Shown: piece by piece, positions 7,006 to 19,856 of the stretch
Layout: each line of letters begins with the position of its first letter
How positions within the stretch are numbered: position 1 is the first letter of the stretch
From: Acrocarpospora phusangensis
GTDB lineage: Bacteria > Actinomycetota > Actinomycetes > Streptosporangiales > Streptosporangiaceae
Assembly: GCF_016862995.1 (NCBI RefSeq)
Contig: NZ_BOOA01000075.1
Location: 1 to 39,146 of the forward strand
Length of the DNA stretch: 39,146 nt
Direction: 5' to 3'
The notes under the pieces: generated by a model
Databases searched by the model: none
Told to the model about the DNA's origin: nothing
Seen by the model: the letters and a program-made list of their open reading frames with translations, nothing else
Made by a program: the position numbers and the translations under genes

Positions 7006-8502
7006 TCAGCCCACTACCACGCCGAACGCGAACAGGCTGTAGAGCAGCATGCCGAGGTAGAACACCGCGCCGAAGCCGATGATCAAGTTCGTCCAGATCT
7101 TGGGCCGGATGGGTTTGGGCAGCATCCGGTTGTTCACCAGCAGCAGCGTCACGCAGTACGCGCCCATCGCGAACGTGGACAGGAACGCCAGCGTGTCGAG
7201 GATGCCGCTGGGCCCGTCGGCGGGGCCGAACAGCAGGATGAGGATGCCGAAGGCGATGACGCCCCACAGGAACGCGGCGTAGAGGTGCGACATGCGCAGC
7301 CGCTTGGCGCCGCGTACGAAGTGGTAGGTCATGTCGGCCTGGCCGCGGGAGAAGGAGTCGAACAGGCCGAGGGTGGCGTTCATGCCGATCAGGGCGATGA
7401 AGCCGAGGAAGACGACGCCCAGGACGGAGCTGCCCGCCGAGGCGAAGGAGTCCGCCATGGCGTTGAGCGCAGCCTCCCGCTCGCCGTTCTCGATGACGTC
7501 CTTGACGCCGGGGGTGTTCCTGGCCGCGGCCTGGGCGATCACGGTGAACGAGATCGTCACGAGCATCGTGATGCCCCAGAAGAGCAGCAGCGCGTCGAAG
7601 GTGACCCAGCGCCGCCAGCCCTTCCACTTGCGCATCTCCTCCGGGTTCTCGGTGTCGAACATGAAGCCGCGCGACGGCATGGCCTCTTCCTCACCGGCGT
7701 GCCGGAGTCCGCGGATCTGCGGGATGTGCGAGCCCATGCCGGCGCCGGAGTCGCGCAGGTGCAGCGTGTACCACATCTGCTGCATGCCCGACGGGCCGGC
7801 GAAGGCGATGGAGCCGACGATGACCGGGAACCAGGCCGCCGACATGGCCTCGGACGGCAGGTAGCCGAAGGAGAACATGCCCGTGATGGTGTTCACCACG
7901 TCGCTCCAGGTGCCGACCATGGCCGCCACGACCGCGGTGCTCACCACGAGCGTGCCGATCAGGATCGAGAGCACGCTCTCCAGGAAGCTGTAGATCACCT
8001 TGGCGAGGCTGAAGACCACCCCGACTAAAAGTAATCCGACCACGGCCGTGACCGTCCATGGGATTCCTGTTATCTCCTCGAACGCCGCCGCGCCCGCCGA
8101 CAGGTGGCCTGGCCAGATGTAGACCAGGATGGCGACGACGAAGAAGAACCACATCAGCGGCTTGAAGACCCGGGCCGCGCCGAAGAAGATGCTCTCTCCG
8201 GTGGCCATCGCGTACCGCGCCATCTCCAGCATGACGACGGCCTGGAGGGTGACGCCGATGAGGAACAGCCATCTGATCTCCGGCCCGAAGAGCAGGACCA
8301 GCCGGGGCCACATGTAGGACTCGCCCATGCCCACGCCGAGCGCGACGAGGAACACGGTGGGCCCGAGGATGTGCACCGACGGGGGCGCGTCGGGCAGCGT
8401 GCGGATGGGCATCGGCTCCAGCTTGCCCGCCCGCCATACTCGTTCTTCTTGATCCGCTGGGGCAGCCGTGTGCTCGGTCGCCGGTGTTCTTGACGTGTCC
8501 AC
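7006..8502 (-). CDS. Nramp-like divalent metal transporter homologue, divergent clade
   Basis: A 498-residue protein with about 11 membrane segments. The first segment contains GVGMGESYMWPRLVLLFG where classical Nramp proteins have the metal-binding DPGN motif. The TM6 region reads GSIAFAGPSGMQQMWY instead of the MPH-type motif. The GE-x-x-x-WP pattern marks a separate Nramp-like clade whose substrate is not established. The GTG at 8502 has GAGGAGG 7 bases upstream and is the clear start; the frame stays open beyond it. It begins 80 bases after the acyl-CoA ligase stop and could be read through from the lyase-Frc-ligase operon. Metal import is the family role, but with both metal motifs replaced a different ion or an organic substrate is possible. 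Confidence 0.8.
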   Translation of the reverse strand: MDTSRTPATEHTAAPADQEERVWRAGKLEPMPIRTLPDAPPSVHILGPTVFLVALGVGMGESYMWPRLVLLFGPEIRWLFLIGVTLQAVVMLEMARYAMATGESIFFGAARVFKPLMWFFFVVAILVYIWPGHLSAGAAAFEEITGIPWTVTAVVGLLLVGVVFSLAKVIYSFLESVLSILIGTLVVSTAVVAAMVGTWSDVVNTITGMFSFGYLPSEAMSAAWFPVIVGSIAFAGPSGMQQMWYTLHLRDSGAGMGSHIPQIRGLRHAGEEEAMPSRGFMFDTENPEEMRKWKGWRRWVTFDALLLFWGITMLVTISFTVIAQAAARNTPGVKDVIENGEREAALNAMADSFASAGSSVLGVVFLGFIALIGMNATLGLFDSFSRGQADMTYHFVRGAKRLRMSHLYAAFLWGVIAFGILILLFGPADGPSGILDTLAFLSTFAMGAYCVTLLLVNNRMLPKPIRPKIWTNLIIGFGAVFYLGMLLYSLFAFGVVVG

Positions 8503-8582: not shown

Positions 8583-10709
8583 TCAGCCGCTCAGTAAGCC
8601 GGCCGCCCGGGCCCAGCGGTATTTCGCGCCGAGCACCGCCACCGGCCTTTCCGTGGTGTACGGATAGGCGATGACACCGTGGTCGAAGAGGTATTCGCAC
8701 GCCTCCTCGACTTCGACGTCACCGGCCAGCGACGCCACGACCGGCTTCTCGTTGCCCCTGGCCCGCTCCTCGGCCACGACCTTGGAGACCAGCTCGGCGA
8801 AGACCATCGGCGGGGTGACGATGGTGTGCCAGTAGCCGAGCACCAGGGCGTGGATCCGGGGGTCGGTCAGGCCGAGCCTGAGGGTGTTCTCATAGGTGCT
8901 GGGCGGCTCGCCGCCCGTGATGTCGATCGGATTGCCGGCCGCCCCGAACGGCGGGATGTACGCGCGGAACGCCTCGTCCAGGTCGGGCGGGATCTCCATC
9001 AGGGTGAGCCCGTTGTCCACGCACGCGTCGGAGAGCAGCACTCCCGAGCCGCCGGCGCCGGTGATGATGACGACGTTCTCACCCTTGGGCGTGGGCATGA
9101 GCGGAAGGGCGCGCGCGTACTCCAGCATCTCGTTCAGTCCGGGGGCACGGACCACGCCGGCCTGGCGCAGGATGTCGTCGTATACCTTGTCGTCGCCGGC
9201 GAGCGCGCCGGTGTGGGACCCGGCGGCGCGGGCGCCCATGGCGGTCCGGCCAGCCTTGAGCACGACCACCGGCTTGTTCTTCACCATGCGGCGGGCGGCC
9301 TCGACGAAGCCGCGCCCGTCCTTGAGGTCCTCCAGGTGCATGGCGACGAGGCGGGTGTTGTCGTCCTGCTCGAAGAAGGTGAGCAGATCGTCCTCGTCCA
9401 CGTCGGCCTTGTTGCCGACGCCGACGATCGCGGACACGCCCATCCTGGTGCTCCGGCTGAAGCCTAAGATGGCCATCCCGATGCCGCCGCTCTGCGAGGT
9501 CAGCGCCACACTGCCGCGCACGTCGTACGGCGTGCAGAAGGTCGCGCAGAGGTTCTCCGGCGTGTAGTAGTACCCGTAGATGTTGGGGCCGAGCATGCGC
9601 ACCCCGTGCCTGCGGGCGATCTCGACGATCTCCTGCTGGCCCTCGACGTTGCCGGTCTCCGCGAACCCGGACGGGATCATGATGGCCCCGGCCACCCCCT
9701 TGTTGCCCGCGTCCTCCAGGGCCCCGGGCACGAATTGGGCGGGGATGGCGAACACGGCCACGTCGACCTCGCCGGGCACGGCCGCCAGGTTCGGGTAGGC
9801 GGGCAGCCCGAGGATCTCGGTGGCCTTCGGGTTGATCGGGTAGATCCGGCCCCGGTAGCCGCCGTTGATGAGGTTCCGCATCACCGAGTTGCCGATCTTC
9901 CCGGTCTCCGCGGAGGCGCCGATGACGGCCACCGCGCGCGGCTTGAAGATGCGGTTCATCGAGGCGAGGATCTCCTCCCGGGTCAGCCGCGCCGGCTGCT
10001 CGGGGGTCTCGGCGGCGAGCAGGATCCGCACGTCGGCGGCGACCGCCCCGTCCGGCCCGGCGAAGACCGGGTTGAGGTCGACCTCGGCGATCTCGGGATG
10101 GTCGGCCACCAGGGCGGCGACACGCTCGATCATGGCAGCGAGCGCGTCGCGGTCGGCCGGCTCGGCCCCCCGCGCCCCGCGCAGCACTTCCGCCGCTTTG
10201 ATGTCATCCAGCATCCCGAGTGCATCATCACCCGAAACTGGGGCAAGTCGGAAGGTCACATCCTTAAGGACCTCAACCAGGACGCCGCCCAGACCGAAGG
10301 CCACGACTTTGCCGAAGGTGGGATCGGTCACCGCACCGATGATCACCTCGTGGCCGCCGCCGACCATCTGCTGGACCTGCACGCCGTCGATGACGGCGTC
10401 CGCATCGTACGCCCGGGCCGCGGCCATGATCTGGTCGTAGCCGGACCGGACCGCGTCGGGGGTGGCCAGGCCGACGAGCACGCCGCCCGCCTCGGTCTTG
10501 TGCAGGATGTCCGGGGAGACGATCTTCAATACGACCGGGAAGCCGATCTCCCCGGCCAGGGCGGCGGCCTGCTCGGCGGAGGTGGCCACGCCCTCACCGG
10601 GGGTGGCGATCCCGTACGCGTCGCAGATGCGCTTGCCCTCGGGGGCGGTCAGCGCCAGCCGGCCCTCGGCCTTGGCCTTTTCGAGGATCTCTCCAACCTC
10701 GTTCGACAT
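8583..10709 (-). CDS. ADP-forming acyl-CoA ligase, fused and permuted (ATP-grasp first)
   Basis: A 708-residue single-chain NDP-forming acyl-CoA synthetase. The N-terminal ATP-grasp (beta-type) half contains GFPVVLKIVSPDILHKTEAGG near residue 58 and VDLNPVFAG near 208. It is followed by the CoA-binding domain (AVAVIGASAETGKIGNSV near 257) and the ligase domains (ALTSQSGGIGMAIL near 389 and GSHTGALAG near 485). In the archaeal and ACS-type fusions the alpha half usually comes first, so this is the beta-alpha order. It makes an acyl-CoA from a carboxylate, ATP and CoA, giving ADP and phosphate. ATG 10709 follows the Frc stop as TGAGATG and has GGAG 9 bases ahead. In this operon it probably primes the CoA cycle by activating the pathway acid, or recovers CoA from a product. 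The acid is unknown. Confidence 0.85.
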   Translation of the reverse strand: MSNEVGEILEKAKAEGRLALTAPEGKRICDAYGIATPGEGVATSAEQAAALAGEIGFPVVLKIVSPDILHKTEAGGVLVGLATPDAVRSGYDQIMAAARAYDADAVIDGVQVQQMVGGGHEVIIGAVTDPTFGKVVAFGLGGVLVEVLKDVTFRLAPVSGDDALGMLDDIKAAEVLRGARGAEPADRDALAAMIERVAALVADHPEIAEVDLNPVFAGPDGAVAADVRILLAAETPEQPARLTREEILASMNRIFKPRAVAVIGASAETGKIGNSVMRNLINGGYRGRIYPINPKATEILGLPAYPNLAAVPGEVDVAVFAIPAQFVPGALEDAGNKGVAGAIMIPSGFAETGNVEGQQEIVEIARRHGVRMLGPNIYGYYYTPENLCATFCTPYDVRGSVALTSQSGGIGMAILGFSRSTRMGVSAIVGVGNKADVDEDDLLTFFEQDDNTRLVAMHLEDLKDGRGFVEAARRMVKNKPVVVLKAGRTAMGARAAGSHTGALAGDDKVYDDILRQAGVVRAPGLNEMLEYARALPLMPTPKGENVVIITGAGGSGVLLSDACVDNGLTLMEIPPDLDEAFRAYIPPFGAAGNPIDITGGEPPSTYENTLRLGLTDPRIHALVLGYWHTIVTPPMVFAELVSKVVAEERARGNEKPVVASLAGDVEVEEACEYLFDHGVIAYPYTTERPVAVLGAKYRWARAAGLLSG

Positions 10710-10710
10710 C

Positions 10711-11937
10711 TCAGACAACTCCGTCTCTCTTGAGCTGGGCCAGCTCTTCTGGGGTGACGCCGAGCCCGGCGTAGATCTCCTGGTTGTGCTCGCCGAGCAG
10801 GGGCGGCGTGGTCACCTCGACCGGGGAGTCGGAGAGGTGGAGCGGGCTGCCGACGGTGACGAAGGACCCGCGCTCGGGGTGCTCGACGGTGACGACCGCG
10901 CCCTCGGCGCGCAGCGACTCGTCCTCGACGAGCTCACGGGTGGACAGGATCGGCCCGCACGGGATGTTCTGCGCGTTCAGCCGGTCCAGCACCGTCCACT
11001 TGTCGTGCTGGATGCTCCACTCCTCGATGAGCTGGAACATCTTGTCGAGCTTGGGCAGCCGCGCCTCCGGGGTGGCCCACTCGGGGTCCTCCGCCAGCTC
11101 CGGGCGGCCGATGATCGCCGACAGCGGGCGCCAGCCCACCGGCTGCACGATGACGTAGATGTAGTCGTTCGGCCCGCCGGGCGAGCAGCGCACCGCCCAG
11201 CCGGGCTGGCCGCCGCCGGAGGCGTTGCCCGACCGGGGCACCTCCGTGCCGAACATCTCGTTCGGGTACTCCCGGAGCGGGCCGTGCGCCAGCCGCTGCT
11301 GGTCGCGCAGCTTGACCCGGCACAGGTTGAGCACCGCGTGCTGCATGGCCACCTGGACCCGCTGGCCGCGGCCGGTCTGCCCGCGCTGGTAGAGGGCGGC
11401 CAGGATGCCGGCCACGGCGTGCACGCCGGTGCCGGAGTCGCCGATCTGGGCGCCGGTGGCCAGCGGCGGGCCGTCCTCGAAACCGGTGGTGGACATCGAT
11501 CCGCCCATCGCCTGGGCGATCACCTCGTACGCCTTGAAGTCCGCGTAGCGTCCCGGGCCGAAGCCCTTGATCGACGCGTACACCAGGCGGGGGTTGAGCT
11601 CCTGCAGGCGCTCCCAGGTGAAGCCCATCCGGTCGACGGCGCCGGGGCCGAAGTTCTCGACCAGGATGTCGGCCTCCTTGACCAGGCCGGTGAACAGCTC
11701 CTTGCCGCGCGCGCTCTTCATGTTGAGGGTGATGCTGCGCTTGTTGCAGTTGAGCATCGTGAAGTAGAGGCTGTCGACGCCAGGCACGTCACGCAGCTGC
11801 TGCCGGGTGATGTCGCCGCTGGGGGCCTCCAGCTTGACGACGTCGGCGCCGAGCCAGCCGAGCAGCTGGGTGCAGGACGGGCCGGACTGCACGTGGGTCA
11901 TGTCGAGGACGCGGACGCCCTCCAGAGCCTTTCCCAT
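10711..11937 (-). CDS. frc: Formyl-CoA transferase (class III CoA-transferase, Frc family)
   Basis: 408 residues, close to the 428 of Oxalobacter Frc, and collinear with it apart from short gaps. Gln17 (THVQSGP), the catalytic Asp167 (QIGDSGTG), the NCNKRSI and ENFGPGA motifs and the glycine loop GGGQPGW (about residue 240) are all present. The family moves CoA from formyl-CoA to oxalate through an aspartyl-CoA anhydride, releasing formate. Trp48 of Oxalobacter Frc, which lines the acceptor site, aligns with Gln47 here, so the acceptor may differ. The ATG has GGAGGACCGG ahead of it and lies 12 bases after the lyase stop, so lyase, frc and ligase form one operon. Confidence 0.9.
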
Positions 11938-11949
11938 GCCGGTCCTCCG

Positions 11950-13650
11950 TTACTTGTACATCGTCTGGTTCATGGTTCCGGGGGCGTACACATCCGGATC
12001 GACCCATACGTTGATCAGCGCGGGCTTGCCGGACTCGCGGGCGCGCTCCAGCGCGGGCCGGATCTCCGCCGGGTCCCTGACCTCCTCGCCGTGGCCGCCC
12101 AGCATCCGGGCGAACTCGTCGTAGCGCACGTCGCCGAGGGTGTTGCCGACCCGGCCGCGGGCGTCGCCGTACTTGGCGGCCTGGCCGTAGCGGATCTGGT
12201 TCATCGAGGAGTTGTTGCCGATGACGCCGATGAACGGCAGGTCGAAGCGGACCATGGTCTCGAAGTCCCACCCGGTGAGGCTGAAGGCGCCGTCGCCGAA
12301 GAGGCAGAGCACCTCCTTGTCGGGGCGCGCGTACTTGGCGGCCATGGCGAACGCGACGCCGACGCCGAGGGTGCCCAGCGGGCCCGGGTCCATCCAGTGG
12401 CCGGGCGACTTGGGCTGCACGACCTGCCCGGAGAAGGTGACGATGTCGCCGCCGTCGCCGATGTAGATGGTGTCCTCGGTGAGGAACTCGTTGATCTCGT
12501 GGACCAGGCGGTAGGGGTCGATGGGCTGGGCGTCGGAGAGCTGGCGGGGCAGTCGGCTCTGGTACGCCTTGGTCTCGACCGCGCGCAGCTCCTCCAGCCA
12601 TTCCTTGCGGCGGGCCGCGCCGTTGTCCACCCGTCCGGAGGCGGCCTGCGCGGCGGCGGACAGGATGAGCCCGGCGTCGCCGACGATGCCCAGGTCGATG
12701 TCGCGGTTCTTGCCGACCGTGCGGTAGTCGAGGTCGATCTGCACCACGGTGGCGGACTTGGACAGGCGCTTGCCGTATCCCATCCGGAAGTCGAACGGCG
12801 TGCCGACGATGATGATCAGGTCGGCCTCGGTGAACGCGTAGCGCCGCGACAGCTGGAAGTGGTGCGGGTCGCCGGGCGGCAGCGTGCCGCGCCCGGATCC
12901 GTTCATGTACGCCGGGACGTTGAGCGCCCGCACGAAGTCGATCGCGTCGTCGGTGGCCCGGCACGTCCACACCTGGCTGCCCAGCAGCACGCACGGCTTC
13001 TCGGAGTGCACGAGCAGGTCGGCCAGGCGCTCGATGGCCGCGGGGTCGCCGGCCTGCCGGGTGGACGCCCGATACCGCCCGGCCTCCGGAATCCTGGCCT
13101 TGGCCACGGGCACCGACGCGTCCAGCACGTCCCGCGGGATCTCCAGGAAAGACGGCCCCGGCGCGCCGTGGTAGCACTCACGGAACGCCATCGACACGAT
13201 GTCGGCCACCCGTTCCGTGCCCGGGACCGTGGCCGCGAACTTGGTGATGGGGGTCATCATGTCCACGTGCGGCAGGTCCTGCAGCGAGCCCATCTTGTGC
13301 TGGCTGAGGGCGCCCTGGCCGCCGATGAGCAGCATCGGGCTCTCCGCGCGGAAAGCGTTGGCCACACCGGTCACCGCGTCGGTCGTGCCGGGCCCGGCCG
13401 TGACCACCGCGCACCCGGGTTTCCCGGTGATCCGCGCGTAGCCGTCAGCGGCGTGCGCGGCCACCTGCTCGTGCCGGACGTCGATGACCTCGATGCCCTC
13501 GTCCACGCAGCCGTCGTAGATGTCGATGATGTGGCCGCCGCAGAGCGTGAAGATCACGTCGATCCCCTCCGCCTTCAGGGCCTTCGCCACCAGGTGGCCG
13601 CCGGAGATCGTTTCCGGCGCGTCCGCTGCCTGCGCCACTGGCTCCGTCAT
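11950..13650 (-). CDS. ThDP-dependent 2-hydroxyacyl-CoA lyase / oxalyl-CoA decarboxylase-like enzyme
   Basis: 566 residues with the three-domain ThDP fold. Glu61 in VRHEQVAAHAADGYAR is the cofactor-activating glutamate, the central domain has IIIVGTPFDFRMGYG, and CLFGDGAFSLTG to GVIGNNSS is the Mg-ThDP GDG-NN motif. Position next to frc suggests oxalyl-CoA decarboxylase. However, the residues that mark Oxalobacter Oxc are missing: GIPITN is CGGHIIDIYD, the Tyr-Glu pair is replaced in GGQGALSQHKMG, Tyr483 falls in NNSSMNQIRYG, and the tail Ser/Arg is PGTMNQTMYK. The sequence instead resembles, from memory, actinobacterial 2-hydroxyacyl-CoA lyase and human ILVBL/HACL2 (GDGGD, WMDPGPLGTLGVG). 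Either enzyme would yield formyl-CoA, from oxalyl-CoA or from a 2-hydroxyacyl-CoA plus an aldehyde or ketone. First gene of its operon, with operator C upstream. Confidence 0.85.
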   Translation of the reverse strand: MTEPVAQAADAPETISGGHLVAKALKAEGIDVIFTLCGGHIIDIYDGCVDEGIEVIDVRHEQVAAHAADGYARITGKPGCAVVTAGPGTTDAVTGVANAFRAESPMLLIGGQGALSQHKMGSLQDLPHVDMMTPITKFAATVPGTERVADIVSMAFRECYHGAPGPSFLEIPRDVLDASVPVAKARIPEAGRYRASTRQAGDPAAIERLADLLVHSEKPCVLLGSQVWTCRATDDAIDFVRALNVPAYMNGSGRGTLPPGDPHHFQLSRRYAFTEADLIIIVGTPFDFRMGYGKRLSKSATVVQIDLDYRTVGKNRDIDLGIVGDAGLILSAAAQAASGRVDNGAARRKEWLEELRAVETKAYQSRLPRQLSDAQPIDPYRLVHEINEFLTEDTIYIGDGGDIVTFSGQVVQPKSPGHWMDPGPLGTLGVGVAFAMAAKYARPDKEVLCLFGDGAFSLTGWDFETMVRFDLPFIGVIGNNSSMNQIRYGQAAKYGDARGRVGNTLGDVRYDEFARMLGGHGEEVRDPAEIRPALERARESGKPALINVWVDPDVYAPGTMNQTMYK

Positions 13651-13757: not shown

Positions 13758-14954
13758 CTACTCGCTCGGACCGGGCTCCACCGGCAGGGCCAGCAGCTCG
13801 ACCGGGCCGCCGGCCCAGCCGGGCGGGAGCACGGCCAGCGCGTCGGCCAGCGCCGGGCCGCGCAGGGATCCCGGCCGGTCGTGGCCGGTCGGCACGGCGC
13901 CGCGCGCCGACCGCCGGACCGCCACCAGCCGGGTGTCGGCGGGATGCGCGGCCACGGGCACGGCCAGCGCGGAGTGCTCCCCCACCGCCTCGGCGCGCCC
14001 GCCCAGCGCGCGCAGCACCGGCGCCAGCAGCGTCAGCGCCGCCGCCAGCGCCGCGAACGGATTGCCGGGCAGGCCGACCAGCAGCCGCCCGTCGGGGAGC
14101 CTGGCCAGCAGCTGCGGATGCCCGGGACGGACCGCGACGCCGTCGACCAGGACCGTCGCCCCGGCCGCCGCCAGCACGTCCCGCAGATGATCGGCCGGCC
14201 CGCGCGAGGATGCCCCGCACACGACCACCACGTCACCGGCGCCGTCGTCGAGGGCCCTGGCCAGCACGCGCTCCCCGTCGGGCAGGTAGCGGGACGGCAG
14301 CGCCTCCCCGCCCGCCCACGCGATCAGGCCGGGCAGCATCGGGCCGACGGCGTCCCGCACCCGGCCGGGACCGGGAACCCCCGCGCGCACCACCTCGTCC
14401 CCGGTGACCAGGACCTCCGCCACCGGGCGCGGCCGGACCCGCAGGAGATCATGGCCGAGCGCGGCGGCGAGCCCGAGCACGACCGGCGTGACCAGGGTGC
14501 CCGCGGCCAGCAGGGGCTCGCCCCTCGCGCAGTCCTCACCCCGCCGCCGGATGTGCCGTCCCGGCTCGATCTCGCCGAACACCACGCCGTCCACGCCGGT
14601 GGACGCCTCGTACGGCAGCACCGCCTCGGCGCCCACCGGGACCGGAGCCCCCGTGCCGATCTCCACGGCGGTGCCGGACCGCAACGTCCCCCCGTACGGC
14701 GAGCCGCCCGCCAGCACCCGGCCCACCACCCGCCACGGCGGCCGGCCGGCCACGGCGTAGCCGTCCATCGCGGCCACGTCGTCGCGCGGCAGCGGGATCA
14801 GGGCGCGCAGCGGTTCGGCCAGGCGCGCCCCGTACGCCCCCGAAAAGGGCAGGTCGGCGGCGGGGAGCGGGGCGGCGGCGCGGTAGGCGACGCGGCGCGC
14901 CCGGTCCCAGGGCACGTCGGCGCGCACGGGCCGGACGCCGGACACGACAGTCAT
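13758..14954 (-). CDS. moeA: Molybdopterin molybdenumtransferase MoeA
   Basis: 398 residues, normal MoeA length. LPRDDVAAMDGYAVAG near residue 55 carries the conserved MDGYA motif, EIGTGAPVPVGAEAVLPYE near 98 is the second family motif, VLVTGDEVV near 182 opens the MogA-like domain, and GLPGNPFAALAA near 315 is the characteristic GLPGNP loop. It inserts molybdate into adenylylated molybdopterin. It has an excellent ribosome site (AAGGAGTCGCC-ATG) and shares the operator D region with the divergent panE-type gene. As a copy under the island operator and close to a molybdenum or tungsten formate dehydrogenase, it probably supplies cofactor to that enzyme. A second housekeeping moeA elsewhere in the genome would be expected. 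Confidence 0.92.
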   Translation of the reverse strand: MTVVSGVRPVRADVPWDRARRVAYRAAAPLPAADLPFSGAYGARLAEPLRALIPLPRDDVAAMDGYAVAGRPPWRVVGRVLAGGSPYGGTLRSGTAVEIGTGAPVPVGAEAVLPYEASTGVDGVVFGEIEPGRHIRRRGEDCARGEPLLAAGTLVTPVVLGLAAALGHDLLRVRPRPVAEVLVTGDEVVRAGVPGPGRVRDAVGPMLPGLIAWAGGEALPSRYLPDGERVLARALDDGAGDVVVVCGASSRGPADHLRDVLAAAGATVLVDGVAVRPGHPQLLARLPDGRLLVGLPGNPFAALAAALTLLAPVLRALGGRAEAVGEHSALAVPVAAHPADTRLVAVRRSARGAVPTGHDRPGSLRGPALADALAVLPPGWAGGPVELLALPVEPGPSE

Positions 14955-14993: not shown

Positions 14994-15027
14994 GAATGCA
15001 CGGTCGACGCGAGAACGGAGCTTGCTT

Positions 15028-16011
15028 GTGAAGGTCGCTGTTCTTGGCGCCGGCGCCATCGGCGCGTATGTGGGGGCCGCCCTGCATCGCGCCGGCGTCG
15101 AGGTGCATCTCATCGCCCGCGGGGAGCACCTCGCGGTCATGCGGAGGTCCGGCGTGCGCGTGCTCAGCCCGCGCGGGGACTTCACCGCCCATCCGTACAC
15201 CACCGACGATCCCCGCGAAATAGGACCGGTCGACCATGTCTTCCTGGGTCTGAAGGCCAACTCCTACGCCGCGGCCGGAGAGATGATCAAGCCACTGCTG
15301 CACGAGAGGACGTCCATCGTCGCCGCCCAGAACGGCATCCCGTGGTGGTACTTCCACCGGCTCGCGGGGCCGTACGAGGGGTATCGGATCGAGAGTGTGG
15401 ACCCGGGCGGGGCGGTCACGGCCGCGCTGCCGCTGGAGCGGGCCATCGGATGCGTGGTCTACGCGGCGACGGAGATCGAGGAGCCCGGCGTGATCCGCCA
15501 CCTGGAGGGCACCCGGTTCTCCATCGGGGAGCCCAGCGGCGAGCTGTCGCCGCGCTGCGTCGAGCTGAGCGAGGCCATGATCGCGGGCGACCTGAAATGC
15601 CCGGTCGAGGCCGACCTGCGGCACGACATCTGGGTGAAGCTGATGGGCAACGTCGCCTTCAACCCGATCAGCGCGCTGACCCGGGCCACCATGGCGGGCA
15701 TCTGCCGGCACCGCAGCACGCGCGAGGTCGTCGTGACGATGATGCGCGAAACGGTCGAGGTGGCCCGGCGGGTCGGCTGCGATCCGCGCATCTCCATCGA
15801 ACGCCGGCTGGCCGGGGCCGAGCGGGCCGGGGAGCACAAGACCTCGACGCTGCAGGACCTGGAGAAGGGCAAACCCCTCGAACTCGACGTGCTGCTGGCC
15901 GCCGTGGTGGAGCTGGCGGATCTGACCGGCGCCTCGGTGCCGACCCTGCGCGCGGTGCACGCGGTCACCGACCTGCTGGACGAGCAGGTCAGGCTTGTGC
16001 CTTCGGCGTGA
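15028..16011 (+). CDS. 2-dehydropantoate 2-reductase (PanE/ApbA) family protein; candidate oxalyl-CoA or 2-oxoacid reductase
   Basis: 327 residues. The N-terminal Rossmann motif VAVLGAGAIGAYVG binds NADP, and KANSYAAAGEM and QNGIPWWYFHRL follow as in PanE. The C-terminal helical domain has DIWVKLMGNVAFNPISALTR, carrying the conserved lysine and asparagine, and EHKTSTLQDLEKGKPLELD, the family end motif. GTG 15028 has GGAG 7 bases ahead; TTG 15022 is in frame but less likely. PanE makes pantoate, but this copy lies in a CoA-acid island under the shared operator. In Methylobacterium extorquens a PanE-like protein (PanE2) is reported as oxalyl-CoA reductase giving glyoxylate, so that role is plausible. 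Reduction of a 2-oxo acid to the 2-hydroxy acid used by the lyase is the other good option. Confidence 0.88.
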   Translation: MKVAVLGAGAIGAYVGAALHRAGVEVHLIARGEHLAVMRRSGVRVLSPRGDFTAHPYTTDDPREIGPVDHVFLGLKANSYAAAGEMIKPLLHERTSIVAAQNGIPWWYFHRLAGPYEGYRIESVDPGGAVTAALPLERAIGCVVYAATEIEEPGVIRHLEGTRFSIGEPSGELSPRCVELSEAMIAGDLKCPVEADLRHDIWVKLMGNVAFNPISALTRATMAGICRHRSTREVVVTMMRETVEVARRVGCDPRISIERRLAGAERAGEHKTSTLQDLEKGKPLELDVLLAAVVELADLTGASVPTLRAVHAVTDLLDEQVRLVPSA

Positions 16012-16072: not shown

Positions 16073-18004
16073 ATGAAGAAGAGGAACCGTGCCGAGCAAC
16101 ACTACGAACGGCTGACCCATCCCCTGGTCAGGGAGAACGGCGAGCTCCGCCGGGCGACCTGGGAGGAGGCGCTCGACCGGGCCGCCGAGGGCTTCCGGCG
16201 CAATGTGGCCGCGCATGGTCCCGACGCGTTCGCCATGTTGTCGTGCGCCCGCTCCACCAACGAGATGAACTATGTGGGCCAGAAGTTCACCCGGGTGGTG
16301 ATGGGCACCAACAATGTGGACTCGTGCAACCGCACCTGTCACGCGCCGAGCGTCGCCGGCCTCTCGGCGGCGTTCGGCAGCGGCGGCGGCACCTCCTCCT
16401 ATCAGGAGGTGGAGGACGCCGACGTCATCCTCATGTGGGGCTCCGCGGCGCGGAACGCCCATCCGATCTTCTTCCAGCATGTGTTGAAGGGCATCCGCAA
16501 GGGGGCCCGGATGTTCGCCGTGGACCCGCGGCGGACCGGGACGGCCGAGTGGGCGGACCGCTGGCTGGGGCTGAACGTGGGCACCGACATCCCGCTGGCC
16601 CACGCGGTGGCCCGGGAGATCATCCACGCCGGGCTGCACAACACGGTGTTCATCGAGCGGGCCACCGAGGGCTTCGAGGAATTCGCGGCCTCCGTGGAGC
16701 CGTGGACGCTGACCGTGGCCGAGCAGGTCACCGGCGTGCCGGCCGCCGCGATCCGCGAGCTCGCGCACGCGTACGCGACGGCAGACCGGGCCCAGCTCTG
16801 CTGGACGCTGGGCATCACCGAGCACCACAACGCCACCGACAACGTCCGGGCGCTGATCAACCTGTCCCTGCTGACCGGCCATGTCGGCCGCTACGGGTCC
16901 GGGCTCTCGCCGCTGCGCGGGCAGAACAACGTGCAGGGCGGCGGCGACATGGGCGCCATCCCCAACCGGCTGCCCGGTTTCCAGGACATCCTGGACCCGG
17001 AGATCCGGGCCCGTTTCGAGGCGGCCTGGCAGACGCCCATCCAGCCGCGGTACGGGCGGAATCTGACCGAGATGCTGGAGGGCATGGCCGAGGGAGAGAT
17101 CACCACCTGCTACCTCATCGGGGAGAACCCCGTGCAGTCGGAGGCCGACTCGCTGAGCTGCATCAAGCGGCTGAGCATGCTCGACCACCTGGTGGTGCAG
17201 GACATCTTCCTCACCAAGACGGCGCAGATGGCCGACGTGGTGCTGCCCGCCGGGGCGGCCTGGTGCGAGAGCGACGGCACCTTCACCAACAGCGAGCGCC
17301 GGGTGCAGCGGGTCCGCAAGGCGCTCGTCCCGCCGGGCGAGGCCCGCGACGACATCTGGATCCTGTGCGAGCTGGCCCGCCGGCTCGGCCACGACTGGGC
17401 GTACGGGAGCGCCGAGGAGGTGTGGGACGAGGTCCGCAGCCTCTCCCCCGCGCACGCGGGCATGACCTACCAGCGCCTGGCCGACCTGCAGGGCATCCAG
17501 TGGCCGTGCCCGTCGGAGGACTCGCTCGAACCGCCGTTCCTGCACGGGCGGCTCTGGGAGACCGACCCGGCCAAACGCGGGCGGCTCGCGCCGTTCGCGG
17601 TGCTGAGGCACTCGCCGCCAGTGGACCTGCTCGACGAGGAATATCCCCTGCGGCTCACCACCGGCAGGCGGCTGGACTCCTACAACACCGGGGTGCAGTC
17701 CTCCGGGTTCGCCTCGCCGCTGCGGCGGGGGGAGAACATCGAGGTCTCCCCCGAGGACGCGGCGCGGCTGGGCGTGGCCGCCGGTGAGGAGGTGCGGATC
17801 ACCTCGCGGCGCGGCACGGTGGTCGCGCCGGTCCACATCGATCCGGGCCTGCGCCCCGGCCTGGTCTTCATGACCATGCACTTCCCCGACGAGGTCGACA
17901 CCAACGCGCTGACCATCGAGGCGACCTGCCCGATCGCGGGCACGGCCGAGTTCAAGGCCGCCGCGGTCAGGATCGACCGGCTCGTCACCGCGAAGGCCGG
18001 GTGA
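16073..18004 (+). CDS. Formate dehydrogenase large subunit, catalytic half (split protein)
   Basis: 643 residues covering only the molybdopterin-binding domains of an FdhA/FdsA-type subunit. DSCNRTCHAPSVAGL (residues 83-97) provides the metal ligand Cys89 next to His90; its codon is TGT, not selenocysteine. LMWGSAARNAHPI, MFAVDPRRTGTAEWADRWL, GLSPLRGQNNVQGGGDMGAIP, LIGENPVQSEADS and the C-terminal LTTGRRLDSYNTG / MTMHFPDE motifs are all present. The usual N-terminal [4Fe-4S] domain is missing: the protein starts in the linker just before YERLTHPLVRENGEL. That domain is encoded as the C-terminus of the gene at 19853. It oxidises formate to CO2 and passes electrons towards the NuoEF-like subunit. 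It is first gene of a tight four-gene operon with ATG 16073 after GGAAGGG. Confidence 0.92.
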   Translation: MKKRNRAEQHYERLTHPLVRENGELRRATWEEALDRAAEGFRRNVAAHGPDAFAMLSCARSTNEMNYVGQKFTRVVMGTNNVDSCNRTCHAPSVAGLSAAFGSGGGTSSYQEVEDADVILMWGSAARNAHPIFFQHVLKGIRKGARMFAVDPRRTGTAEWADRWLGLNVGTDIPLAHAVAREIIHAGLHNTVFIERATEGFEEFAASVEPWTLTVAEQVTGVPAAAIRELAHAYATADRAQLCWTLGITEHHNATDNVRALINLSLLTGHVGRYGSGLSPLRGQNNVQGGGDMGAIPNRLPGFQDILDPEIRARFEAAWQTPIQPRYGRNLTEMLEGMAEGEITTCYLIGENPVQSEADSLSCIKRLSMLDHLVVQDIFLTKTAQMADVVLPAGAAWCESDGTFTNSERRVQRVRKALVPPGEARDDIWILCELARRLGHDWAYGSAEEVWDEVRSLSPAHAGMTYQRLADLQGIQWPCPSEDSLEPPFLHGRLWETDPAKRGRLAPFAVLRHSPPVDLLDEEYPLRLTTGRRLDSYNTGVQSSGFASPLRRGENIEVSPEDAARLGVAAGEEVRITSRRGTVVAPVHIDPGLRPGLVFMTMHFPDEVDTNALTIEATCPIAGTAEFKAAAVRIDRLVTAKAG

Positions 18005-18011
18005 CGGGCGC

Positions 18012-19856
18012 ATGGACCTGCGCTTCCGTGACGCGGAGCCGACCGCCGAGGAGCGCGCCGCCGTGGACGCGCTTCTCGGTGAGCCGGAGACGGGCTGGGA
18101 GGGCGGCGCCCGGACCGAGGACGATCTCCGGTTCGCCGCCGCGCCCGCCGAGGAGCGGCGCGACCAGTTACTGCCGGCCCTGCACGCGGTGAACGACCGG
18201 GTGGGCTGGATCAGCGAGGGCGCGCTCGACTACATCTGCCGCCGGTTGGGCGTGCCGCCCGCCGAGGCGTACTCGGTGGCCACGTTCTATTCGTTGTTGT
18301 CCGTCGAGCCCCGGCCGCCGCGGGTCCTGCACGTCTGCACCGACCTGGCCTGCCAGGCGCGCGGCGCGGACAAGGTCCGGCGGGACGTCGAAGCCCAGCT
18401 CGGACCGGCGGGGACCTCGTGGCAGCCGAGCCCGTGCCTGGGCGTGTGCGAGCGGGCTCCCGCCGCGCTCGCCCTGCAGGCGGGTGAGCACCCCACCGCC
18501 ACCGTGTACGGCGACGCCGACTTCTCCGACCCCTCCTCCTTCGACTGGATCTCTCCGGAAGAGGACACCCCGGATGTGCCCGGCGTGTTCGGCGACGATC
18601 CGGTCCGGGCGGCCGTCCCGCAGGCCGGGGATCCCCGGCTGGTGCTGCTGCGGCGGGTCGGCGTCGTCGATCCGGCGAGCCTGGACGACTACCGGGCCAC
18701 CGGCGGTTACGCCGCCCTGCGCCGGGCCTTCGAGCTCGGCCCCGGCGGGGTCATCCGGGAGGTGCTGGAGGCCGGCCTGGTCGGGCGGGGCGGGGCCGCG
18801 TTCCCGACCGGGCGGAAGTGGGAGGCCACCGCGCGCCAGTTCGACCGGCCGCACTACCTCGTCTGCAACGCGGACGAGAGCGAGCCCGGCACGTTCAAAG
18901 ACCGCGTCGTCATGGAAGGCGACCCGTACGCGCTGGTCGAGGCCATGACCGTCGCCGGTTACGCGACCGGCTGCGCGCGCGGATACCTCTACATCCGGGG
19001 CGAGTACCCCCGGGCGACCCGGCGGCTGGAGCACGCGATCGCCACCGCGCGGGCGCGCGGCCTGCTCGGGGAGGACATCCTCGGGCAGGGCTTCGCGTTC
19101 GACATCGAGATCAGGCGCGGGGCGGGGGCGTACATCTGCGGCGAGGAAACCGCGATCTTCAACTCGATCGAGGGGTATCGGGGCGAGCCGCGCAGCAAGC
19201 CGCCGTTCCCGGTGGAGAAGGGCCTGTTCGGCAAGCCGACGGTGGTCAACAACGTCGAGACGCTCGTCAACGTGCTCCCGATCCTGGAGCAGGGGGCCGC
19301 GGCGTACGCGGCGGTCGGCACGGGCGGCTCGACCGGGACGAAACTGTTCTGCGTGTCGGGGACGGTCCAGCGTCCCGGCCTCTACGAGCTGCCGTTCGGG
19401 GCGACCCTCGGCGACCTGCTCGCCCTCGCGGGCGGGGCGACGGGCGCCCTCCGCGCGGTCCTGCTCGGCGGCGCGGCCGGAGCCTTCGTCCGCGGCGACG
19501 AACTGGACATCCCGCTCACCTTCGAGGGCACCCGTGCCGCCGGGGCCACGCTCGGCTCCGGCGTGATCCTGGTGCTGGACGACACGGTGGAGCTGCCGCC
19601 GTTCCTGCTGCGCATCGCCGAGTTCTTCCGCGACGAGTCGTGCGGGCAGTGCGTCCCGTGCCGGGTCGGGACGGTCCGGCAGGAGGAGGCGCTGCACCGG
19701 CTGACGAAACGGCGGTCCGCCGGGGATCTCGTGCTGCTGCGCGAGGTCGGGCAGGCGATGCGGGACGCGTCCATCTGCGGGCTCGGCCAGACCGCGTGGA
19801 ACGCCGTCGAATCGGCCATCGACCGGCTGGGAGTCTTCGCCGAGGAGGCATCATGA
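18012..19856 (+). CDS. NAD-reducing formate dehydrogenase subunit, NuoE-NuoF fusion (FdsG-FdsB type)
   Basis: 614 residues joining two normally separate subunits. Residues 50-170 are NuoE-like, with the four [2Fe-2S] cysteines in HVCTDLACQA and PCLGVCERA. After a linker, the NuoF part has GRGGAAFPTGRKWE (FMN), NADESEPGTFKDR, GAGAYICGEETAIFNSIEG (NADH) and ESCGQCVPCRVGT with a later Cys in DASICGLGQ for the [4Fe-4S] cluster. The fusion order is that of FdsG followed by FdsB. It receives electrons from the catalytic subunit and reduces NAD+, in the cytoplasm, since no membrane subunit is encoded. It starts 7 bases after the catalytic-half stop, and its stop overlaps the next start (ATGA). Confidence 0.92.
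   Translation: MDLRFRDAEPTAEERAAVDALLGEPETGWEGGARTEDDLRFAAAPAEERRDQLLPALHAVNDRVGWISEGALDYICRRLGVPPAEAYSVATFYSLLSVEPRPPRVLHVCTDLACQARGADKVRRDVEAQLGPAGTSWQPSPCLGVCERAPAALALQAGEHPTATVYGDADFSDPSSFDWISPEEDTPDVPGVFGDDPVRAAVPQAGDPRLVLLRRVGVVDPASLDDYRATGGYAALRRAFELGPGGVIREVLEAGLVGRGGAAFPTGRKWEATARQFDRPHYLVCNADESEPGTFKDRVVMEGDPYALVEAMTVAGYATGCARGYLYIRGEYPRATRRLEHAIATARARGLLGEDILGQGFAFDIEIRRGAGAYICGEETAIFNSIEGYRGEPRSKPPFPVEKGLFGKPTVVNNVETLVNVLPILEQGAAAYAAVGTGGSTGTKLFCVSGTVQRPGLYELPFGATLGDLLALAGGATGALRAVLLGGAAGAFVRGDELDIPLTFEGTRAAGATLGSGVILVLDDTVELPPFLLRIAEFFRDESCGQCVPCRVGTVRQEEALHRLTKRRSAGDLVLLREVGQAMRDASICGLGQTAWNAVESAIDRLGVFAEEAS

Follow-up and report, generated by a model that had tools for sequence, protein, structure and literature searches.

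A ThDP enzyme encoded beside frc in Acrocarpospora phusangensis as a very probable non-orthologous oxalyl-CoA decarboxylase

The genes oxc and frc are markers in surveys of oxalate degraders. The described proteins closest to the enzyme treated here are canonical oxalyl-CoA decarboxylase (Oxc; TIGR03254; structures 2c31, 2q27 and 7ayg), the 2-hydroxyacyl-CoA lyase AcHACL (7pt1), further HACL and HACS enzymes (8vza, 8vzd, 8vzj and 6xn8), which have ThDP/CoA chemistry in common with it, human HACL2, i.e. ILVBL (presumably A1L0T0), and the PRK05858 family. Proton transfer by Glu493 of AcHACL is described as a step peculiar to the cleavage of 2-hydroxyacyl-CoAs, without a counterpart in the catalysis of OXC (PMC8760513). 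A comparative table gives Ile554 and Gln161 as the corresponding pair of human HACL2, lists HACL1 and RuHACL without an E493 homologue and has an active-site Gln common to all of its lyases, where Oxc has Glu (PMC13327070). HACL2 carries a Glu of its own, E557, three residues after the Ile (PMC8760513).

The window, i.e. the whole stretch of 39,146 nucleotides from A. phusangensis that was analysed, holds a ThDP enzyme gene as the first of a tight set, followed by frc and genes for an ADP-forming acyl-CoA ligase and an Nramp-type transporter; upstream of it lie a MoeA-like gene, a PanE-like reductase gene and formate dehydrogenase (FDH) genes:

7006..8502, minus strand: Nramp-type transporter (NF037982, 462.7 against a cut-off of 50), with a likely GTG start at 8502
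8583..10718, minus strand: ADP-forming acyl-CoA ligase (ATP-grasp; PF13549, PF13607, PF19045), overlapping the end of frc by 8 bp
10711..11937, minus strand: Frc, formyl-CoA:oxalate CoA-transferase, beginning 12 bp past the ThDP enzyme gene
11950..13650, minus strand: ThDP enzyme, 566 aa, ATG start, proposed non-orthologous oxalyl-CoA decarboxylase
13758..14954, minus strand: MoeA-like molybdopterin molybdotransferase (PF03453, PF00994)
15022..16011, plus strand: PanE/ApbA-family reductase (PRK06522.1-4, 446 against 223)
16073..18004, plus strand: formate dehydrogenase alpha subunit (TIGR01591, 642 bits, just under the cut-off of 666)
18012..19856, plus strand: NuoE/NuoF-type fusion (Pfam 2Fe-2S_thioredx, Complex1_51K, NADH_4Fe-4S)

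GGAAGGA lies upstream of the start of the ThDP enzyme, which has three Pfam TPP domains. The motifs quoted for it in the first-pass annotation were found again in the 566-aa ORF—CGGHIIDIYD at residues 37-46, GDGGD at 398-402 and PGTMNQTMYK at 557-566—and WMDPGPLGTLGVG occupies residues 419-431. Across orthologs, all positions but one of the C-terminal YAPGTxNQTMYK are invariant, and this tail may act as a lid. As 12 of the 41 genomes searched, its own counted, hold a copy at 81-100% identity (one with an internal stop) and the best match after these stands at 42%, the gene is no chance occurrence; its annotated orthologs go by the PGAP name 'thiamine pyrophosphate-binding protein'. The neighbouring Frc is well above the cut-off of its model (TIGR03253, 662.7 vs 504.2 bits), matches E. 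coli YfdW (1pt5) at 3.6e-142 and retains the VQSGPSCTQ and GGGQPGW stretches. The Nramp-type transporter gave no Pfam match, and for the FDH alpha subunit the ATG at 16073 was taken, the longer ORF beginning at 15995.

The ThDP enzyme resembles canonical Oxc in its Frc partner, its presumed reaction and, in several loci, its FDH and OxlT/OFA-type neighbours; it differs in sequence, being 24-30% identical to the Oxc copies compared. On TIGR03254, the model of canonical Oxc, the ThDP enzyme scores 245.2 bits against a cut-off of 739.4, and on NF058623, taken here as the model of AcHACL-type 2-hydroxyacyl-CoA lyase, 363.4 against 600. Its highest HMM score is that of PRK05858 ('acetolactate synthase' in NCBIfam), at 504 bits likewise under the cut-off (587); the genome encodes a separate PRK05858 member (891 bits), in which the E493 position is still Glu. 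A plain acetolactate synthase was rejected, with this member, an IlvB-type member and Gcl (860 vs 791 on one model, which it passes, and 692 vs 711 on another, which it just misses) all encoded elsewhere in the genome. Among solved structures, AcHACL is the best match (4.4e-81), followed by the HACS/HACL entries (7e-79 to 6e-71) and benzaldehyde lyase (2.5e-69), with the Oxc structures behind all of these (8.5e-61 to 5e-54). By sequence, the enzyme is nearer to lyases of the AcHACL kind; the likeness to ILVBL noted in the first-pass annotation is seen in the Ile/Gln pair treated below.

In a tree of 45 rows, the window-type sequences of actinomycetes and proteobacteria (14 rows) group at 100/100, apart from the 10-row Oxc group (100/99), and it is canonical Oxc, not the ThDP enzyme, that three placed HACS enzymes (the HACL/HACS entries above without 6xn8) join at 100/100. 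AcHACL falls on the window-type side at 95/84, on a branch 2.1 long that was flagged as unsafe and with other families intervening; two families with roughly 38-46% identity stand nearest to the ThDP enzyme. The phylogeny called for as a check puts this enzyme type outside the Oxc clade, a divergent Oxc was rejected on tree and HMM scores, and, judged by its sequence, the ThDP enzyme is not orthologous to Oxc.

How far the active site differs from that of Oxc was read from an alignment to O. formigenes Oxc. The ThDP-activating Glu is retained (E56 of Oxc, E61 here), whereas in 14 of 14 aligned orthologs the Oxc segment GIPITN is replaced by GGHIID, Y120 by L123, E121 by Q124, Y483 by I486 and S553 by G558. 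The earlier statement that the Oxc markers are all replaced is correct for these residues; the C-terminal Arg that it included proved a weak marker, position 555 being Arg in one of ten Oxc rows, His in eight and Asn in one. The absence of the Tyr/Glu/Tyr/Ser set weakens a reading as a decarboxylase. The reading put first in the first-pass annotation is a lyase that would cleave a 2-hydroxyacyl-CoA to an aldehyde or ketone plus formyl-CoA, with the CoA recycled by Frc.

This lyase reading draws on the likeness to AcHACL and HACS as the closest solved relatives, on its placement towards AcHACL in the tree (95/84) and on the active site itself: the GGHI and DGGD loops, the active-site Gln and an Asn-Asn segment are common to AcHACL and the ThDP enzyme, and Gln124 and Ile486 correspond to Q161 and I554 of human HACL2 (PMC13327070). 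Yet the length of the AcHACL branch makes the tree grouping weak, NF058623 stays far under its cut-off, and the large C-terminal lid of AcHACL (PMC8760513) contrasts with a short tail here. The catalytic glutamates are missing as well. The AcHACL Glu493 column, fixed from wild-type and E493 variant structure chains and identical with the column of Oxc 483, holds Ile486 in 14 of 14 orthologs, and the position of HACL2 E557 corresponds, on the papers' numbering, to Gly489, which is Gly in 27 of 27 rows (PMC8760513); at neither 486 nor 489 does any of 27 rows of this enzyme type have Glu. A paralog group at ~40% identity keeps Glu at the E493 column in 7 of 7 rows. Lyase chemistry is still compatible with the residues, because HACL2 has the same Ile/Gln pair and HACL1 and RuHACL have no E493 homologue (PMC13327070). 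The enzyme thus appears to be without both lyase glutamates, and residues alone do not settle its substrate. A related family at 42-46% identity (L168-L173 and L033) has Met at the Glu493 column in 7 of 7 aligned members; those from the phylum sample described below sit in genomes without Frc.

Genome content points to oxalate. In A. phusangensis, a single Frc exceeds the cut-off, the one beside the ThDP enzyme, and no Oxc does. In a phylum sample of 396 genomes, Frc (taken at E <= 1e-120) was found in 21, in 20 of them over the curated cut-off, and the search for Oxc in these 21 divided them cleanly: Oxc is present in 14 (above the cut-off in 11, at most 10 bits away from it in three), seven have the ThDP enzyme (83-100% identity), none has both and none has neither. 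The 375 genomes of this sample without Frc hold no ThDP enzyme; seven hold a relative at 44-46%. A second sample comprised 296 genomes of one genus, which we infer to be Streptomyces because its Frc sequences and those of named Streptomyces interleave in the tree, and all three proteins were sought in every genome. Frc occurs in 144, the ThDP enzyme in 120 and Oxc in 26, all of them within the Frc genomes: 118 of the 144 have the ThDP enzyme only, 24 Oxc only, two both and none neither, and the 152 genomes without Frc contain no ThDP enzyme and no Oxc (Fisher p = 2.4e-25, uncorrected for kinship of the genomes). In this Streptomyces-like genus, the ThDP enzyme thus accompanies Frc in 120/144 genomes, against 26/144 for Oxc.

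The same partnership is seen at the level of gene order. In all 80 titled loci kept, the best 80 out of at least 592, the genes for ThDP enzyme, Frc and ADP-forming ligase stand side by side, so that, together with the 144/144 Frc genomes that have one enzyme or the other, the ThDP enzyme keeps company with Frc as Oxc does. Oxc at E <= 1e-150 was found in 0 of 50 genomes searched for it, those of the first 50 of the 80 loci (L046-L095), with no Streptomyces record among them; a divergent Oxc under the limits of these searches would escape them. One genome (G458, locus L212) combines a divergent ThDP enzyme copy (70%) with two canonical Oxc and two Frc, in a fragmented assembly of 1300 contigs with 4% contamination.

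Loci at which the ThDP gene has gone missing show the replacement from the other side. Inspection by tblastn of 19 of the 26 Oxc genomes, many picked for extra or distant Frc copies, revealed 12 with a window-type Frc (76-80%) and no intact ThDP enzyme gene, two with both enzymes and five with the canonical cluster only in the stretches fetched. In nine of the 12 loci, the stretch from the divergent sucC-like gene to Frc yields no ThDP enzyme match, and three of these nine also have no ligase in the stretch; L200 retains a decayed remnant of the enzyme with the N-terminal domain missing. In L199 and L202, where the ThDP enzyme gene is missing, the gene row itself contains canonical Oxc, which lies downstream, past the window-type Frc and ligase, and not at the site of the lost gene. 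On the Frc tree, parsimony counts six changes to the state without the ThDP enzyme, of which well-supported branches force one only. Were the ThDP enzyme to have an unrelated activity, such as glyoxylate or formyl-CoA carboligation, and merely travel with Frc while an unrecognised oxalyl-CoA decarboxylase acted elsewhere, the absence of its gene alongside canonical Oxc would be left unexplained; the PanE-like and Gcl genes of relatives do place glyoxylate chemistry nearby, and we regard this explanation as exceedingly unlikely.

Orthologs at 67-69% identity also occur outside the actinomycetes, in five proteobacterial records of a plasmid collection. Four of these were inspected (those of Cupriavidus metallidurans and Caballeronia were read by tblastn, and the Methylobacterium record L220 was left out), and all four replicons carry Frc (734, 730, 623 and 738 against a cut-off of 504 bits), OxlT (623, 601, 654 and 634 against 335 bits), a ligase gene and a PanE-like gene. 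The island of P. zundukense adds Gcl (1216 vs 711) and hydroxypyruvate isomerase. No Oxc over the cut-off was found on the four replicons, to which the search was confined.

An Frc over its cut-off, OxlT beside the proteobacterial orthologs and the exchange with Oxc genome by genome all favour an oxalyl-CoA decarboxylase, and cleavage of a 2-hydroxyacyl-CoA by this operon is not favoured. As a native function, lyase activity was rejected on the exchange and on the OxlT neighbours of the relatives, and it appears very unlikely overall. The ThDP enzyme is instead very probably a non-orthologous oxalyl-CoA decarboxylase, from another branch of the ThDP decarboxylases than canonical Oxc—the alternative that the first-pass annotation had mentioned last. 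The HACL2-like Ile/Gln pair, the two genomes that hold both enzymes and the non-independence of the genomes weaken this reading somewhat. It is likely, too, that oxalyl-CoA decarboxylation evolved twice, with a different active site in the clade described here, which would be the commoner form in the genus and is also present on proteobacterial replicons.

Under the decarboxylase reading, oxalate would enter the cell, possibly through the Nramp-type transporter, which may serve oxalate or metal uptake. The ADP-forming ligase, for which a role in priming or energy conservation is suggested, may prime the first oxalyl-CoA or could recover ATP from formyl-CoA. The ThDP enzyme would convert oxalyl-CoA to CO2 and formyl-CoA, and Frc would pass the CoA from formyl-CoA onto the next oxalate, releasing formate. 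The neighbouring FDH, with the NuoE/NuoF-type fusion as its putative NAD-linked subunit and the MoeA-like protein plausibly serving its cofactor, would oxidise formate to CO2. The PanE-like protein is a candidate oxalyl-CoA reductase by subfamily membership and linkage, and may resemble M. extorquens PanE2, which has been characterised as a putative enzyme of this kind and employed accordingly (PMC8411744); it may divert part of the oxalyl-CoA to glyoxylate, to be assimilated via the Gcl encoded elsewhere in the genome. We infer the reaction of the ThDP enzyme and every flux in this scheme. What had been proposed as a self-priming CoA cycle would accordingly be the usual cycle of Frc and Oxc, in which oxalate is the acid. 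Because FDH genes adjoin, formate is not necessarily the waste product it was taken for.

Oxc and HACL have a formyl-CoA/ThDP intermediate in common, and MeOXC has been engineered into a carboligase (both PMC8411744), which makes a dual role conceivable, i.e. decarboxylation of oxalyl-CoA in the cell combined with appreciable formyl-CoA carboligation or 2-hydroxyacyl-CoA cleavage that might itself be physiological. Among the identified neighbours, however, the one candidate for dealing with an aldehyde is the ALDH-like gene of the Streptomyces version, which is also found beside loci without the ThDP enzyme; such a dual role is very unlikely.

Oxalotrophic Streptomyces are on record (PMC11347878, PMC7793669), and many soil actinomycetes seem to degrade oxalate with the ThDP enzyme rather than with textbook Oxc. 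A published collection of 1396 Oxc sequences is connected at 50% identity (PMC7190790), so that a family with 24-30% identity would be expected to lie beyond it; the ThDP enzyme belongs to a different superfamily branch and is therefore missed by textbook oxc searches. If the proposed reaction is correct, TIGR03254 would score 118 of the 144 Frc genomes of the genus as without a decarboxylase. Mechanistic studies would then gain a second oxalyl-CoA chemistry of independent origin to compare, and work on formyl-CoA carboligases a new scaffold. In the open-licence literature, no report of an oxalyl-CoA decarboxylase other than Oxc was found. PMC10192776 describes an Oxc tree with an all-actinobacterial Group I, and the novelty would be less if window-type proteins belong to that group.

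The outer genes were counted in the same 80 titled loci, some of which are cut short by contig ends. The Nramp-type transporter is present in 44 (and in 0 of 15 Streptomyces loci), a PanE-like gene lies at most 8 kb away in 56, and FdhA is found in 24; the Streptomyces versions inspected have OFA-family transporters with scores under the OxlT cut-offs. PanE-like genes also adjoin canonical oxc-frc in L214 and L217, and oxlT and gcl in Azospirillum. A strict link of PanE to oxalate is disfavoured, because around the plasmid-borne PanE relatives of Skermanella and Streptomycetaceae NBC_01309 the annotation shows neither Frc nor Oxc nor OxlT up to 9 kb away. One of the 80 loci, titled Rhodococcus rhodnii (L088), comes from a 12.4-Mb genome with gene spacing like that of Kibdelosporangium (L085, L087, L090) and is possibly mislabelled. 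Finally, the canonical oxc-frc clusters L177, L179, L211, L214, L215 and L217 include an acyl-CoA ligase that is divergent and FadD7-like and that is a candidate for an oxalyl-CoA synthetase.
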